The position numbers were made by a program, and so were the translations under genes. From positions 1-9,858 of the forward strand of contig JAJYBQ010000069.1 in the NCBI GenBank assembly GCA_021778935.1: a stretch of DNA of 9,858 bases. The letters run 5' to 3'. The DNA comes from Pseudomonadota bacterium (GTDB taxonomy: Bacteria > Pseudomonadota > Gammaproteobacteria > Burkholderiales > Burkholderiaceae). The notes under the pieces are model-generated. The model did not search any database. It saw only the letters and a list, made by a program, of their open reading frames with translations, and had not been told where the DNA came from. Shown in pieces: positions 10 to 6,423 of this stretch (positions are counted from its first letter, which is position 1; the number at the start of each line of letters is the position of its first letter).

Positions 10-47
10 CCCTCACCCCCGCCCTCTCCCGCTTGCGGGAGAGGGGG
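10..47 (+). repeat. Palindromic repeat copy 1 (forward)
   Basis: The copy has a head reading CCCTCACCCCCG followed by a perfect 11-bp inverted repeat (CCCTCTCCCGC at 22-32, loop TT, mirrored arm at 35-45). The same head and stem recur at 5370, 5513, 5614 (reversed) and 6091. It lies just downstream of the LysR gene on the minus strand, but no T-run follows it, so it is not a canonical intrinsic terminator. It resembles REP-type extragenic palindromes. Confidence 0.85.
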
Positions 48-1139: not shown

Positions 1140-2792
1140 ATGCCGCATGACCCGCTTGCGCCCGCTCTGGCCCTGATTCCCCCGATGCTCTACCTGCTGG
1201 TCGGGTTGATGCCTGCCAGCTGGGCCAACGCGCGCATCGACGCCATGACCGGGCTCGCCGCCAAAGCGGCCTGGACGGCACTGGCCGGCGCCGGCGCAAC
1301 GGCCGTCGCCCATGGGTTCGATTCCGCCCAGTCCTGGACGATCCATCCGTTCGCGCTGGGTGACCTGGGCGGTTTCCCCTTGGAAATCTATGTCAACGGC
1401 CTCACCGTCACCATGCTGCTGCTGGTGTCCTTCGTCGGCGCGGTGGTGACCCGCTACGCGCGCGCGAATCTCGACGGCGACCCCAATCAGGGAAGCTTCC
1501 ACAAATGGCTGGCGATGACGCTCGCCGCGATCCTCACCCTGATCGTGTCCGGCAATCTCCTGCTGTTCGCCTTCGCATGGATCGCCACCAGCCTGTGCCT
1601 GCACCAACTGCTGATGTTCTACCGCGAGCGGCCGGCGGCGGTTCTTGCCGCCCACAAGAAATTCGTCGCCAGCCGGATCGGCGATGTCAGCCTGCTGTGC
1701 GCCGTTGCGCTCATCGGATCGAGCCTGCACACGCTCGATTTCGCACGGATGTTCCGGATCCTGGCGACACCGGGAATCCCGGTTCCGGCGGCGCTGGATA
1801 TCGCCGCCCTGCTGATCGTCGTCAGTGCGGCCCTGAAATCCGCGCAGTTCCCGTTCCACGGCTGGCTGATCCAGGTGATGGAGGCGCCGACGCCGGTATC
1901 CGCGCTGCTGCACGCGGGCATCGTCAACGCCGGGGCGTTTCTCGTCGTGCGCATGAGCCCGGTGATCTCGCACTCCGAATCGGCGCGCTGCGTCCTGGTC
2001 GCGATCGGCCTGATCACGCTGGCCCTCTCATCGCTCGTCATGCTCACCCAGACCAGCATCAAGGTCTCGCTTGCCTGGTCGACCACGGCGCAGATGGGTT
2101 TCATGCTGCTGGAATGCGGCCTGGGCCTCTACAGCCTTGCGATCCTGCACGTCGTCACGCACTCCCTCTACAAGGCGCATGCGTTCCTCGCCTCCGGGAG
2201 CAGCGTCGACACCTTCCGCGCACCGGTCCTGCCCTACTCCGGCGCCGGGTTTCGGCCCGGCCGCCTGCTGCGGGCCCTGCTGACCGGCAGCGTACTGACC
2301 GTGGTCACCGCCGCCGCATTCGGCATCACGGCGCATAGCCCGCCGGCCCTGCTCGCCGCCGCCACGGTGGTCGCGATCGCGACCTCCCAGTTGCTGCTGC
2401 TGGCCATCGCCGAGACCGAGGGAAATCCTTCGTTCCTGCGGGCACTGGGCCTCGGCATCGTCGTGGTGGTGGCGTACTTCACGCTGCATGCCGGGTTCGA
2501 CGCGGCGCTGGCAAGCAGCGTGCTCGCGGTGCCGGATCCGGCAAGCCGGTTCCAGGACATCCTCGCGGCCACCGTCGTCGGCGTCTTCGTCGTCCTGCTG
2601 GTGGTCCAGCAGATCCTGAAAGCCGACCCCGCGGCCTTGGGCAAGGGGCTGTATCTACACCTCTACAACGGCCTGTATGTCGACGTGTACATCACGCGAC
2701 TGCTGCAGCGCGTCTGGCCCAGCCCGCCCACGGATGCGGGCGCGCCGCCGGCCCCCTTCGCAACCATTCCCGGAACCCGAGGTGGTTCATGA
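1140..2792 (+). CDS. dabB: DabB, membrane subunit of the DAB inorganic carbon system
   Basis: This is a 550-residue multi-spanning membrane protein of the proton-conducting transporter family (NuoL/MrpA-like, PF00361). DabB couples an ion gradient to the cytoplasmic DabA subunit so that CO2 is converted vectorially to bicarbonate. Visible family features are FHKWLAMT near residue 120, AHKKFVASRIGDVSLL near 172, KSAQFPFHGWL starting at Lys233, followed by EAPTPVSALLHAGIVNAG, and HSLYKAHAFL with Lys345. These lysines sit where NuoL-like antiporters carry proton-path residues. The ATG at 1140 has an AGGAG just upstream; an in-frame Met at 1089 would add 17 polar residues and has no ribosome site. 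The stop overlaps the dabA start (ATGA), as expected for translational coupling. NuoL itself is unlikely because no nuo genes are near and DabA follows directly. Confidence 0.92.
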   Translation: MPHDPLAPALALIPPMLYLLVGLMPASWANARIDAMTGLAAKAAWTALAGAGATAVAHGFDSAQSWTIHPFALGDLGGFPLEIYVNGLTVTMLLLVSFVGAVVTRYARANLDGDPNQGSFHKWLAMTLAAILTLIVSGNLLLFAFAWIATSLCLHQLLMFYRERPAAVLAAHKKFVASRIGDVSLLCAVALIGSSLHTLDFARMFRILATPGIPVPAALDIAALLIVVSAALKSAQFPFHGWLIQVMEAPTPVSALLHAGIVNAGAFLVVRMSPVISHSESARCVLVAIGLITLALSSLVMLTQTSIKVSLAWSTTAQMGFMLLECGLGLYSLAILHVVTHSLYKAHAFLASGSSVDTFRAPVLPYSGAGFRPGRLLRALLTGSVLTVVTAAAFGITAHSPPALLAAATVVAIATSQLLLLAIAETEGNPSFLRALGLGIVVVVAYFTLHAGFDAALASSVLAVPDPASRFQDILAATVVGVFVVLLVVQQILKADPAALGKGLYLHLYNGLYVDVYITRLLQRVWPSPPTDAGAPPAPFATIPGTRGGS

Positions 2793-5344
2793 ACGCACAG
2801 ACGACCGACGATCTCGTGAACCGCGGCGACGCCGGATCGGCGGCGCCGGCTCCGGAGGAACTGCGTGCGCACATCGATGCGGCCTGCGCCCGCATCGCGC
2901 CTCTGTGGCCGCTGCAGCATTTCGTGGCGGTGAATCCGTTCTTCGGATTGCGCGACCAGAGCTTCCAGGAGGCGTCCGACACCCTGGCGCGGATCACCGG
3001 CGCGGGTCTCTACATGCCCCGCGCCTACTATCGCGCACAGCTTGCCTCCGGGCGCATCACGCGCGAGGACATCGCGACCGCGATCCGCCGCTGCGACAGT
3101 TCGCTCGATCCGGAGCGCGTCGAACGGGCCCTGGCGGCGGAAGCGCCGCGGCCCAAGCTCGGGATGGCGGCGGTCAGCGAAGTGCTCGAGCGTGTCGAAG
3201 GCGGGCTGTGGTCGAGCTTCGTCACCGAGCGCATCAGCCTGCACTGCGCCGCGTACTTCGACCTCGGCCAAGCCACGATCCGCATGCCCTGGCGCAAGCA
3301 GCCGCTCTTTGCGGCCTGGCGCGAAGCGGCTGCGATCGATCGCAGCCCGTCGATGATGGGGCTCTCCGACTTCCGGTCGGCGGTGTCCCGTCTGCCGGAG
3401 GATCCGTACGCCGCCATCGCCCTGGCGATCCGCCGCCTCAACATCCCCGCCGCGGCGGTCGAACGCTACCTGCATGCCTCGCTGATTAGCATCAACGGCT
3501 GGGCGGCATGGGCGCGATACCTGCGCTGGCAGGCCGAACTGCAGGGCGGTCGCGACCATTCGATCGTCGATCTGCTAGCGATCCGGCTGATGTGGGACAT
3601 GCTCCTCTACGAAGAGAAGCGGTCGGCGGCGCTGGTTGCGCGCTGGCGCGACATGCTCGCCGCCAGCATGCGCCCGCCGTCGGCCAAGCGCCAGGCTTCG
3701 GCGGAGATCGACCGCATTTTGCTGACCGCGATGGAGGTCGGCTTCCAGCGCAGCATCATCGCCGGCGTGGCCGAGCCGGCGGGCTCCCAGCCCGACGGCG
3801 GTTCGGCGGCGACGTCTCCCGGGCGGCCCGCGGTGCAGGCGGCGTTCTGCATCGATGTGCGCTCGGAGGTGTTCCGGCGCGCGCTCGAGACCGTCGCCTC
3901 GCCGATCCAGACGCTCGGGTTCGCCGGGTTCTTCGGGATCTTCATCGAACACGTTCCGCTGGGCTCCCATGCCGGCCACGTCCATGTCCCGGTATTGTTC
4001 CGACCGGGTTATCCGATCTACGACCGGGTCAAGAACCGCGACCCGGACGCCGTGATCACCGAGCGCCGCCGCCGCATCGGACTCTACAAGGCCTGGAAGG
4101 GGTTCAAGTTCTCGGCCGCATCCTGCTTTTCATTCGTCGAAGCGACCGGACTGATGTATGCGTCGAAGCTGATCACCGACAGTTTCGGCTGGACCCGGCC
4201 GGTTCCCGACCCGCGGACCCAGGGCCTCGACCAGGACGCCGCCGACCGCGTCGGCCCGACCCTCGATGACGTGTCGCCGGGCCGGCGATGCCCGGACCAC
4301 ACCCATGCCGGCATCCCGCCCGAGGAACGCGCCGGACATGCGGAACGGATCCTGCGGGCGATGTCGCTCACCGGCAATTTCGCACCCATCGTGCTGTTGG
4401 CCGGCCACGGCAGTAGCACCGTCAACAACCCCTATGGATCGGCGCTCGACTGCGGCGCCTGCGCCGGACAAACCGGAGAGGCCAGCGCGCGGGTGGTCGC
4501 CGCCCTGTTGAACGACCGCGCCGTCCGGGAGGAACTGCGCCGCCGCGGCATCGACGTTCCCGACGACACGTGGTTTCTCGCCGGGCTCCACGACACCACC
4601 ACGGATGCGCTGCAGCTCTTCGATTGCGACGACCTGCCGCCGACGCTGGCACCGGATCTCGCCCGCCTGCGGCAGTGGCTGGAGCAGGCCGCGGATCTGG
4701 CGCGCCTGGAGCGCGCCGCCCTGCTCGGGATCGCCGCCACCACCGACCGCGGCATCGAAACCCGCATCCGCGGCCGCAGCCGCGACTGGTCGCAGGTGCG
4801 CCCCGAATGGGCGCTCGCCAACAACGCCGCCTTCATCGCCGCGCCGCGATCCCGCACGGCGGCGCTCCACCTCGCCGGCCGCGCCTTCCTGCACGACTAC
4901 GTCTGGCAGCAGGACGCGGGATTCGGCGTGCTCGAACTGATCATGACGGCGCCGATGGTCGTGGCGAACTGGATCAACATGCAGTACTACGGATCGGTCG
5001 TGGACAACCGACGTTTCGGCAGCGGCAACAAGGTGCTGCACAACGTCACCGGCGGCGCGATCGGCGTGCTCGAAGGTAATGGTGGTGACCTGCGAACCGG
5101 CCTGCCCCTGCAATCGTTGCGCGACGGCAGGAACTGGATGCACGAGCCCTTGCGCTTGAGCGTGTTCATCGAGGCGCCGCAGGATCCGATCGATGACATC
5201 GTCTCGCGCCACGCGCTGGTGCGCGAGTTGGTGGGAAACGGATGGTTGCACCTATTCCGGATCGAGGACGACGGCACCGTGTCCCTGCGCCGGCCCGATG
5301 GCGGATGGCAGCCGGCGGAGGCGCATCGGCAACGCATCGAGTGA
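2789..5344 (+). CDS. dabA: DabA, zinc-dependent carbonic anhydrase-like subunit (DUF2309)
   Basis: At 851 residues it has the usual size of DabA (DUF2309/COG3002, formerly UPF0753). DabA is a peripheral protein with a beta-carbonic-anhydrase-like zinc site that makes bicarbonate when bound to DabB. The site is intact: FCIDVRSE gives Cys354 and Asp356, GHGSS gives His540, and LDCGACAG gives Cys555. The 15-residue His-Cys spacing matches that known for the Halothiobacillus protein (His524/Cys539). Other family stretches include an N-terminal WPLQHFVAVNPFFGL at about 38-52 and a C-terminal GNKVLHNVTGGAIGVLEGNGGDLRTGLPLQS segment (split here only as a landmark). The start overlaps the dabB stop, with GAGG 6 nt upstream of the ATG. 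A palindromic repeat begins 25 bp after the stop. The protein has no signal peptide, in line with a cytoplasmic membrane-attached role. Confidence 0.95.
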   Translation: MNAQTTDDLVNRGDAGSAAPAPEELRAHIDAACARIAPLWPLQHFVAVNPFFGLRDQSFQEASDTLARITGAGLYMPRAYYRAQLASGRITREDIATAIRRCDSSLDPERVERALAAEAPRPKLGMAAVSEVLERVEGGLWSSFVTERISLHCAAYFDLGQATIRMPWRKQPLFAAWREAAAIDRSPSMMGLSDFRSAVSRLPEDPYAAIALAIRRLNIPAAAVERYLHASLISINGWAAWARYLRWQAELQGGRDHSIVDLLAIRLMWDMLLYEEKRSAALVARWRDMLAASMRPPSAKRQASAEIDRILLTAMEVGFQRSIIAGVAEPAGSQPDGGSAATSPGRPAVQAAFCIDVRSEVFRRALETVASPIQTLGFAGFFGIFIEHVPLGSHAGHVHVPVLFRPGYPIYDRVKNRDPDAVITERRRRIGLYKAWKGFKFSAASCFSFVEATGLMYASKLITDSFGWTRPVPDPRTQGLDQDAADRVGPTLDDVSPGRRCPDHTHAGIPPEERAGHAERILRAMSLTGNFAPIVLLAGHGSSTVNNPYGSALDCGACAGQTGEASARVVAALLNDRAVREELRRRGIDVPDDTWFLAGLHDTTTDALQLFDCDDLPPTLAPDLARLRQWLEQAADLARLERAALLGIAATTDRGIETRIRGRSRDWSQVRPEWALANNAAFIAAPRSRTAALHLAGRAFLHDYVWQQDAGFGVLELIMTAPMVVANWINMQYYGSVVDNRRFGSGNKVLHNVTGGAIGVLEGNGGDLRTGLPLQSLRDGRNWMHEPLRLSVFIEAPQDPIDDIVSRHALVRELVGNGWLHLFRIEDDGTVSLRRPDGGWQPAEAHRQRIE

Positions 5345-5369: not shown

Positions 5370-5405
5370 CCCTCACCCCCACCCTCTCCCGCACGCGGGA
5401 GAGGG
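5370..5405 (+). repeat. Palindromic repeat copy 3 (forward)
   Basis: The CCCTCACCCCC head is followed by perfect 11-bp arms (5382-5392 and 5395-5405) with loop AC. It lies just after dabA. The bases after it are A-rich on the plus strand (AATAAAAATATC), not T-rich, so it is not a standard intrinsic terminator for dabA, although the RNA hairpin could still protect the 3' end. Confidence 0.85.
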
Positions 5406-5442: not shown

Positions 5443-5466
5443 CCCTCTCCCGCACGCGGGAGAGGG
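5443..5466. repeat. Palindromic repeat copy 4 (headless)
   Basis: The perfect 11-bp arms (5443-5453 and 5456-5466, loop AC) are present, but the CCCTCAC head is missing. The right flank GGGGTGTG resembles that of copy 7 at about 6127-6134. Only 37 bp separate it from copy 3. Confidence 0.85.
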
Positions 5467-5512: not shown

Positions 5513-5548
5513 CCCTCACCCCCGCCCTCTCCCGCACGCGGGAGAGGG
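5513..5548 (+). repeat. Palindromic repeat copy 5 (forward)
   Basis: It has the CCCTCACCCCCG head and perfect 11-bp arms around loop AC. It is preceded by GCGGACG, close to the GCGAACG and GCGACCG that precede copies 1-3, so the conserved unit includes about 8 bp ahead of the head. Confidence 0.85.
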
Positions 5549-5613
5549 AGTTTGATCGGGGCGGCGCGCCTTCGTTGCCATTGGCCGGCAATGGTGCACC
5601 GGGACTACACGCC

Positions 5614-5649
5614 CCCTCTCCCGCGTGCGGGAGAGGGCGGGGGTGAGGG
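5614..5649 (-). repeat. Palindromic repeat copy 6 (reversed, left end of element)
   Basis: The stem arms are at 5614-5624 and 5627-5637 with loop GT, then CGGGGGTGAGGG. This is the only copy in reverse orientation, so its head faces the DUF559 gene and mirrors copy 7. Confidence 0.85.
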
Positions 5650-5736
5650 GCGTCGCAATTGCTACCGCCGCCGGTAGTGCCGCGTACAACCCGTCGCCGC
5701 AGACTTGGGCTTTCTTCAATACCGTTTTCCCCTCTC

Positions 5737-6423
5737 ATGGAAACACCGGGACGAATCCCATTCTGGGTGAGAGCGCGCTCGCTGCGCGCCGAATCGACCG
5801 ACGCCGAGCGCCGTCTCTGGGGGGCGTTGCGCGCGCGCCGCCTGATGGGATGGCGGTTCCGACGGCAGCAACCGATCGGTCCCTACATCGTCGATTTCGT
5901 ATGCATCGAACGACGCCTGATTGTCGAGGTCGACGGCTCGCAACATCGAGAGGCCATTCGGTATGACACCGCGCGGGATTGGTTTCTTTGCAGGCGGGGC
6001 TTCGTCGTGATGCGATTTTGGAACAGCGATGTCCTGACGCAAACGGCGGCGGTGCTGGAGAAAATTTGTGCGGTATCACAGTTGCGGCGACCCTCACCCC
6101 CGCCCTCTCCCGCCTGCGCGGGAGAGGGGGTGTGTGGTCCCAATGCACCTGCTTCCGCCTGCGCGGGAGAGGGGGTGTGTGGTCCCAATGCACCTGCTTC
6201 CGCCTGCGCGGGAGAGGGGGTGTGTGGTCCCAATGCACCTGCTTCCGCCAGCGCGAGAGAGGGGGCTTGGTCGGGATCCATCAGCGGGTCAGCGACAGAT
6301 ACAGGGCTGGGAGCTTTTCCGGCAGACGCGCGACCTGGTCGAGGATCAGGTAACTCTTCGCCCCGAAGATCCGCGAAACGTACTGGTCGGCATTGGGATC
6401 CAGCGTCAGGCAGAAGGTGTTGA
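5737..6423 (+). CDS. DUF559 (Vsr/PD-(D/E)XK-like) endonuclease-domain protein with repeat-derived tail
   Basis: Residues 1 to about 115 form a DUF559 domain, a predicted nuclease fold related to Vsr mismatch endonuclease. The family landmarks are present: AERRLW with Glu24, FRRQQPIGPYIVDF with Asp53, LIVEVDGSQH with Glu64, Asp66 and His70, then RGFVVMRFWNSDV near 87-99. DUF559 proteins are usually about 110-140 residues; this frame has 228. The extra 110 residues come from translation of a palindromic repeat, a 45-bp tandem array (a 15-residue ACAGEG-type unit repeated) and 143 bp antisense to the 3' end of cbbO. The native stop was therefore probably lost, and the tail is unlikely to be a selected domain. 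No clear ribosome-binding site precedes the ATG at 5737. Base composition looks less GC-rich than dabA or cbbO. Biochemical function is unknown for most members; a role in moving the flanking repeats is speculation. Confidence 0.72.
   Translation: METPGRIPFWVRARSLRAESTDAERRLWGALRARRLMGWRFRRQQPIGPYIVDFVCIERRLIVEVDGSQHREAIRYDTARDWFLCRRGFVVMRFWNSDVLTQTAAVLEKICAVSQLRRPSPPPSPACAGEGVCGPNAPASACAGEGVCGPNAPASACAGEGVCGPNAPASASAREGAWSGSISGSATDTGLGAFPADARPGRGSGNSSPRRSAKRTGRHWDPASGRRC
6091..6128 (+). repeat. Palindromic repeat copy 7 (forward, right end of element)
   Basis: It has the CCCTCACCCCCG head, arms at 6103-6113 and 6118-6128, and a 4-nt loop CTGC in place of the 2-nt loop of other copies. It is the mirror partner of copy 6, and its right arm is the start of the tandem array. 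Confidence 0.85.
6111..6265 (+). repeat. 45-bp tandem repeat, three full units and a partial fourth
   Basis: Units start at 6111, 6156 and 6201 and are essentially identical; a fourth begins at 6246 and diverges after about 20 bp (GCGAGAGAGGGGGC instead of GCGGGAGAGGGGGT). Each unit contains the right arm of the palindrome plus GTGTGTGGTCCCAATGCACC, which is the outer part of the right inverted repeat. The period is a multiple of three, so every frame that is open in one unit stays open through the array. It ends about 15 bp before the cbbO stop codon. Confidence 0.9.

Follow-up and report, generated by a model that had tools for sequence, protein, structure and literature searches.

RAYT proteins (TnpA-REP, Y1 HUH transposases) and the REP or REPIN sequences together form the REPtron, in which inverted copies of a dispersed palindromic repeat stand on both sides of the gene. 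At the foot of the REP hairpin stands a GTAG/CGTC tag (PMC3733652). The intrastrand triplex motif TM_ECO, earlier called PIT or Box C, was described by Holder et al. in 2015 and has the pattern CCCTCNCCCN3-6GGGNGAGGGN3GGGNGAGGG (PMC4666352). Its 3610 copies in 262 proteobacterial genomes are intergenic, and some lie in inverted pairs; TM_ECO forms a triplex in vitro, and triplex motifs have been linked to instability in E. coli (PMC4666352). According to the text of that report the neighbours of TM_ECO revealed no functional class and mobility activities were never found nearby; the words DUF559, ycjD and endonuclease have no occurrence in its main text. As for the DUF559 family (PF04480), earlier work has placed YcjD of E. 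coli in the PD-(D/E)XK superfamily near Vsr (PMC1189080), and a DUF559 gene has already been assigned to the EDxHD family (PMC9403480).

The locus analysed here combines a DUF559 gene with repeats of the triplex-motif (TM) type. A first-pass annotation, made from the sequence alone, had called the element a candidate for an undescribed one. For the repeats this is incorrect, as they are the TM_ECO/PIT/Box C motif (PMC4666352); it can stand at most for the pairing. The bracketing of DUF559 genes by such repeats and the covariation of stem and tag across lineages were found in the present analysis, and a search of the open-licence PMC literature found no paper tying DUF559 to TM repeats.

The DUF559 unit and its arms

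The window, that is, the whole stretch of 9,858 nucleotides that was analysed, contains two arms in inverted orientation at 5593..5661 (+ strand) and 6079..6149 (- strand). The surroundings resemble a carbon-concentration locus, with DabA (Pfam match) and a VWA protein that we take to be CbbO-like. In a local alignment of the 200 bp on each side of the gene, the left arm matched the reverse complement of the right one over 71 columns, differing by 8 substitutions and a single gap of 2 nt (score 45), exactly as the first-pass annotation had it (about 70 bp, roughly 8 substitutions and a 2-nt indel). The best of 1128 other same-size placements in the window scored 14.5. The same arms were recovered without gaps in a separate repeat search (repeats I1 and I2). 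The alignment also bears out the claim that the match extends past the shared palindrome, both outwards (GGTGCA..GGGAC.ACAC) and inwards (CG.CGCAA.TG).

In each arm a spacer of 3 nt separates the hairpin (CCCTCTCCC-loop-GGGAGAGGG) from a tag, GGGTGAGGG, facing the gene, and the outer and inner extensions lie at the ends. In the left arm the hairpin lies at 5614..5637 (+) and the tag at 5641..5649 (+); together they fit the published TM_ECO pattern fully (PMC4666352), and the tag, as putative third strand, obeys the purine-triplex code at 9/9 positions. The right arm has its tag (CCCTCACCC on the + strand) at 6091..6099 (-) and its hairpin at 6103..6128 (-), and fits the pattern except for a loop of 8, the published range being 3-6. 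The GCGGGAGAG palindrome of the first-pass annotation leaves out the more telling half of the repeat, the GGGTGAGGG tag aimed at the gene from both sides.

Besides the two arms the window contains four hairpins of the family. Three of them, at 10..45, 5370..5405 and 5513..5548 (all on the - strand), are TM copies outside the unit with a 9/9 tag, and one, at 5443..5466, is tagless; the latter resembles the solo palindromes of Xanthomonas described below. The outer part of the right arm is repeated in head-to-tail copies of about 45 bp (family D3; 6107..6265), a series that ends in a diverged copy and looks like local amplification of one arm. Rfam gave no match in the window at the gathering threshold.

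The only gene between the arms is a DUF559 gene (PF04480, E = 5e-39; 132.9 bits against a cut-off of 20.6, positions 6-106 of 109); the first-pass annotation had seen one gene of a Vsr/PD-(D/E)XK-like family there. It is read on the + strand from an ATG at 5737 (5737..6423; the mechanical open reading frame begins with TTG at 5659), and past about 6090 its reading frame is translated repeat. Profile match, alignment and model with fold search place the domain at 5770..6072 (+). The model of the window protein (pLDDT 86.8) was closest to 3hrl (E = 1e-8), a member of the same family, followed by the catalytic domain of the homing endonuclease I-Bth0305I (3r3p, E = 1.7e-4) and more weakly by Vsr (1cw0, E = 0.024), the closest folds of known function. 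Residues E24, D53, E64, D66, H70 and D77 are present in the window protein and invariant in a 19-row alignment of relatives. The fold match to 3r3p suggests a comparison with the EDxHD enzymes, which also have conserved acidic and histidine residues, and the six invariant residues are candidate active-site residues. The best reading of the model is a single-domain nuclease of the EDxHD/Vsr type. While the EDxHD homing relatives of phage possess extra DNA-binding regions (PMC3943268), DUF559 here is a single domain of about 115 aa, and it lies between repeats, not in an intron.

A profile search of the window detected no Y1 (HUH) domain, the only matches being DUF559 and, below its cut-off, MTES_1575. 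None of the PADLOC families matched in the window, and a known anti-phage defence system was rejected on this ground.

Bracketing, stem/tag covariation and cognate repeats

A check named beforehand was whether the DUF559 genes of relatives are bracketed more often than other genes. Eighty loci with close DUF559 relatives were picked from species genomes by protein similarity alone and 78 were used; the top score of one (L042) was a run of N and another (L077) lay at a contig edge. With an inverted-repeat score of at least 18 for the 200-bp flanks as criterion, 56 of 78 DUF559 genes were bracketed, compared with 4 of 793 other ORFs and 2 of 219 small ORFs in the same loci (Fisher p = 6e-65); the DUF559 loci below 18 numbered 22. 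The bracketed loci span the Proteobacteria and loci labelled Chloroflexi, Nitrospirae and Cyanobacteria. Forty further loci, chosen by genome and not by flank, sampled part of the DUF559 genes of nine multi-DUF559 genomes; 31 of them scored at least 16, and in one genome (G203) none of the four sampled loci was bracketed. At the level of sequence comparison, the inverted bracket is general and specific to DUF559. The tags faced the gene in 41 of the 44 TM pairs detected around DUF559. Elsewhere, close TM pairs (no more than 150 bp apart) were inverted in 68 of 75 cases.

The two best-known members of the family deviate from this arrangement. E. coli YcjD and the N. gonorrhoeae 3hrl protein (encoded by L082, E = 5.6e-66) have TM-like repeats near their genes, but in neither locus do these form a clean inverted bracket. 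Around ycjD, TMs lie only 3' of the gene. In N. gonorrhoeae the closest repeat 5' of the gene and the closest one 3' of it share one orientation, with inverted copies further 3'. Within L082, three same-orientation copies alternate 3' of the gene (2485-3187) with three inverted, longer-stemmed ones at a spacing of about 281 bp.

Paralogues within a genome were mostly 45-62% alike in DNA (three pairs that include a partial gene were lower and one pair reached 79%), and the unit is considered low-copy because of this divergence. A classical or high-copy insertion sequence was rejected: there is no transposase gene, near-identical copies were absent and the paralogues are too diverged, as judged from the partly sampled DUF559 genes of the nine genomes.

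Tags and stems were compared under the code for an antiparallel purine third strand (G.GC, A.AT and T.AT). Among 140 hairpin-plus-tag units from 79 loci, the own tag (best tag window) fitted the stem at 9/9 positions in 73.6%, against 12.3% when tags were swapped between loci with different stems and scanned alike; in direct orientation the values were 30.7% and 13.6%. Stem/tag combinations such as GGGGGAAGG/GGATGGGGG, GGGAGAAGG/GGATGAGGG and GGGGGAGGA/AGGTGGGGG illustrate the agreement across lineages. As far as can be judged from these comparisons, the third strand covaries with the stem between lineages as a triplex requires. Any protein reading a mirror repeat would also account for the covariation; coming from a comparison of lineages, it speaks for a role in cells of the triplex or of some mirror-symmetric recognition.

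Own arms outscored all cross-locus arms in 23 of the 30 bracketed loci of the multi-DUF559 genomes. Across genomes, protein identity correlated with arm similarity (r = 0.27; 2 of 5000 within-genome permutations were as high), and the most similar arm belonged to the best protein partner (at least 55% identity) in 13 of 17 rows, many of which were reciprocal. The arm type GGGGAGGGGGACCA, found at L105 and L106 in G072 and at L113 in G236, numbers 21 copies in the former genome and 39 in the latter, against none in five other DUF559 genomes; the L106 and L113 proteins are 69% identical, and L113 shares no more than 44% with other G072 proteins except L104 (51%) and L105 (58%). The arm class changed 22 times on a protein tree built from 88 loci (mean 33.1 and minimum 27 in 300 shuffles). 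The signal was weak for L001-L080 alone, with 16 changes against a mean of 19.3 and 6 of 300 shuffles as low. These comparisons show a largely cognate pairing, each nuclease lineage apparently going with its own repeat type.

A survey of 199 Pseudomonadota genomes gave 49 with both TM repeats and DUF559, 9 with TM only, 7 with DUF559 only and 134 with neither (odds ratio 104, p = 1.4e-29, kinship ignored); a size-binned permutation reached a maximum of 35 genomes with both. TM-positive genomes had at least three hairpins, and other repeat types are missed in this count because only two repeat patterns were counted. DUF559 was scored as present at E of 1e-15 or lower (56 genomes), so that 19 of the 75 genomes with any DUF559 match, their E values lying between 1e-14 and 9e-4, fall into the absent group, including the TM-only genomes G074 and G195. 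Nine of the 58 genomes with at least three hairpins had no good DUF559 match, one of them (G102) with as many as 69 hairpins and no recognisable DUF559 remnant in its stretch of the Pseudomonas site considered below (L251). Conversely, 134 of 143 DUF559-negative genomes had fewer than three hairpins. TM abundance did not track Y1_Tnp in the same 199 genomes (29, 29, 80 and 61 in the same order; odds ratio 0.76, p = 0.43). Y1_Tnp was counted in 109 of 115 matching genomes, six with E above 1e-4 being left out; 110 were over the Pfam cut-off. A RAYT as the mover of TM repeats was rejected on the strength of this comparison. The repeat-plus-nuclease reading of the first-pass annotation, taken as a general association, is strongly supported by the ORF control, the co-occurrence with its Y1_Tnp control and the cognate pairing.

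Turnover of units at fixed sites

A fixed site in Xanthomonas, beside a gene that is presumably hmgA-like, was searched in 35 genomes, of which 33 were used (in G443 and G461 it was split over contigs). Twenty-four of the 33 possessed the DUF559 gene, 12 of them with both palindromes by the strict pattern and three with a split protein match. Seven contained a solo palindrome without tags or gene (five by pattern, G453 and G464 by eye); one (G459) had neither unit nor solo palindrome and one (G454) was rearranged with a short remnant. The filled allele reads AAAG[CCCCTCTCCC..GGGAGAGGGG]TTGGGGTGAGGG-gene-CCCTCACCCCAA[CCCCTCTCCC..GGGAGAGGGG]CTT and the typical solo allele AAAGCCCCTCTCCC..GGGAGAGGGGCTT. 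Either tag-bounded DNA would enter the palindrome and duplicate it, or recombination between palindromes would delete the gene; judging from the alleles, the hairpin itself may be the target duplication. Such compatible empty and filled alleles are also what an EDxHD homing endonuclease would leave, with direction and cutting being putative.

The solo genomes are scattered on a tree of the Xanthomonas flanks, some nodes of which are weak. G440 and G437 are 95-100% alike over 551-1100 and 80-92% in the flanks; the exchange tract reaches somewhat past the unit, because the gene spans 666-986. The reverse is seen in G447 and G452, where the flanks are 90-99% and the DUF559 genes 73-82% identical and the spacer before the gene is also divergent. 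The pattern seen in these alignments is one of apparent exchange of units between species at a fixed site. In L210 (G461) an apparent insertion sequence, close to a contig end, lies within the unit's left hairpin.

Another site, between two conserved genes of Pseudomonas, was searched in 79 genomes and seven stretches were compared. A DUF559-TM unit was present in G005, G480 and G530, a REPIN-like pair in G531 (L245) and a Y1_Tnp gene between REP-like repeats in G476 (L248); the repeats are judged to be REP-like by eye. The Y1_Tnp match in G476 was weak (E = 2.8e-4), and over the cut-off with its neighbours. In G545 (C1:803485-807240) the gene of a DUF559 unit is split by other DNA of about 2 kb.

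In E. coli MG1655, copy no. 9 of Table 1 in the TM_ECO report (1351204-1351239; PMC4666352) lies between fabI and ycjD (1351407-1351760). Two other E. coli loci (L087 and L088), with a ycjD of 366 nt, have an intact TM overlapping the 3' end of the gene; at this place K-12 retains only a decayed remnant of the TM. A place covering at least 80% of a ycjD+TM query was found in 3364 of 5426 E. coli genomes, and 60 rows spread down the ranking were examined for TM places with one TM type as query. Counting the ycjD place itself, the 37 rows with ycjD had 13-28 TM places. The 23 rows that lack ycjD fell into 14 with 1-5 places and nine, the O157-labelled ones among them, with 10-17. These counts would fit loss of ycjD with slow decay of the TMs, but are confounded by phylogeny, the phylogroup pattern being given in PMC12817139. 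TM blocks were present or absent between strains at adk-hemH and yjdP-phnP; neither place showed a clean target-site duplication, adk-hemH being a segment replacement and yjdP-phnP a TM pair without clear duplication.

The dabA-cbbO interval of the window was also compared, by searching 200 genomes with the CbbO-like protein (110 matched). Among 20 places none had the convergent arrangement and in none was DUF559 found, some of the stretches ending at contig edges; dabA was nearby on the same strand in five (L165, L166, L168, L169 and L171).

The interpretation given in the first-pass annotation holds in part. A "small mobile element" that jumps freely is not apparent from the low-copy, diverged units; what the alleles described above show is that the unit is lost or gained at a fixed place and exchanged between species.

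The nuclease as a possible mover of triplex repeats

The reading that we prefer, and consider fairly probable, is that the window contains a member of a widespread two-part system, a DUF559 nuclease with a cognate family of triplex repeats, in a partnership similar to the REPtron. Our confidence in it is slightly lowered because E. coli and N. gonorrhoeae are not clean inverted brackets. Also counting against it are the nine TM-bearing genomes with no good DUF559 match, the O157-labelled E. coli rows that retain TMs without ycjD, and the lack of a clean target-site duplication at the two E. coli places. Association, orientation, specificity and unit turnover can be read from the alignments, with the exceptions mentioned; for triplex recognition, cutting and dispersal we infer the following course. 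DUF559 would recognise the hairpin plus tag, probably on a strand exposed at the replication fork and folded as hairpin or triplex, and would nick or cut at this structure. Repair or copying would insert a new hairpin-plus-tag copy or pair elsewhere, or replace the unit at the same site. TM repeats would stand to this nuclease as REPs stand to RAYTs, namely as its non-autonomous progeny, the nuclease being unrelated to the RAYT whose place it takes. These comparisons make DUF559 a strong candidate for spreading the triplex repeats. A more far-reaching proposal, for which our confidence falls a little short of even, is that the long-missing mover of triplex repeats in bacteria is the DUF559 nuclease, and that these nucleases constitute a second, independently evolved REP-type system that occurs in many phyla, recognises a triplex and amplifies in a lineage-specific way. 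According to this proposal a homing/Vsr-type nuclease would read the intramolecular triplex, made up of hairpin stem and covarying third strand, and each nuclease lineage would amplify its own repeats; a possible way is that tag-bounded DNA goes into a palindrome, which becomes duplicated.

The likeness to RAYTs and REPs consists in a low-copy nuclease gene between inverted repeats, dispersed repeats that often form inverted pairs, and cognate pairing; moreover, DUF559-TM units and a Y1 gene can occupy the same Pseudomonas site. The differences are that DUF559 has no Y1 domain and an unrelated fold, that the abundance of the repeats does not track Y1_Tnp, and that the place of the GTAG/CGTC tag is taken by the triplex third strand GGGTGAGGG or its lineage variants. 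The DUF559-TM unit is not classed as RAYT/REP, because the Y1 domain, the defining test of that family, is absent.

The Xanthomonas alleles, in which a solo palindrome alternates with [hairpin]-tag-gene-tag-[hairpin], together with the fold adjoining that of I-Bth0305I and fixed-site swaps between species as in G447/G452, could also be understood if DUF559 was a selfish homing-type nuclease landing on pre-existing TM hairpins. It would cut the solo palindrome and be copied in, duplicating the hairpin, and the TMs would be spread by something else. However, the repeats are rare without DUF559 (134 of 143 negative genomes), and any other spreader would therefore need to follow DUF559 too; nor would one expect nuclease lineages with their own repeat types. 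We consider this explanation unlikely. There is a rather small chance that DUF559 has a house-keeping function, resolving or repairing TM triplex or hairpin DNA, that TM-rich genomes keep it for this reason and that the flanking TMs act as regulator or terminator. For a repair enzyme, however, there would be no need of a place between two inverted copies of its substrate, nor of 7-8 diverged, bracketed paralogues in one genome that differ in repeat type. The alternation of unit and solo palindrome would also be left unexplained, even though the Vsr-like nature of DUF559 (fold search; PMC1189080), the link of triplex motifs to instability in E. coli (PMC4666352) and the overlap of a repeat with the 3' end of the gene in the window and in some E. 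coli all suit such a function.

The first-pass annotation had also considered a hitchhiker in a repeat cluster: TM clusters would build up in tolerant intergenic gaps, where DUF559 would land by chance or by general horizontal transfer. TMs do pair up in general, and permissive hot spots exist, as the elements at the Pseudomonas site differ from species to species; both points count for hitchhiking. Nevertheless it is largely refuted by the control in which only 4 of 793 other ORFs of the same loci were bracketed, and the co-occurrence, the nearly fixed orientation of the tags (41 of 44 facing the gene) and the cognate arms likewise disfavour it, which makes it very improbable.

If the two-part system is the correct reading, several consequences follow. 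TM/PIT/Box C repeats are abundant and appear in PMC4666352 with no associated gene or mobility class; the link to a nuclease would make their spread testable, and E. coli K-12 ycjD is the place where this becomes directly so. The DUF559 family, which is large (6703 homologues in one search), would gain a concrete candidate substrate. The RAYT/REP system would have a structurally unrelated counterpart able to occupy the same site.

Among paralogues, the pair with 79% identity in DNA consists of two related DUF559 genes 5.7 kb apart (L118 and L119 in G219), whose arms of about 100 bp are nearly identical within each unit, possibly through a recent duplication of the unit. In G017 two equal-scoring DUF559 copies, at C111:5033-5350 and 5616-5933, lie 583 bp apart and may represent a tandem duplication.
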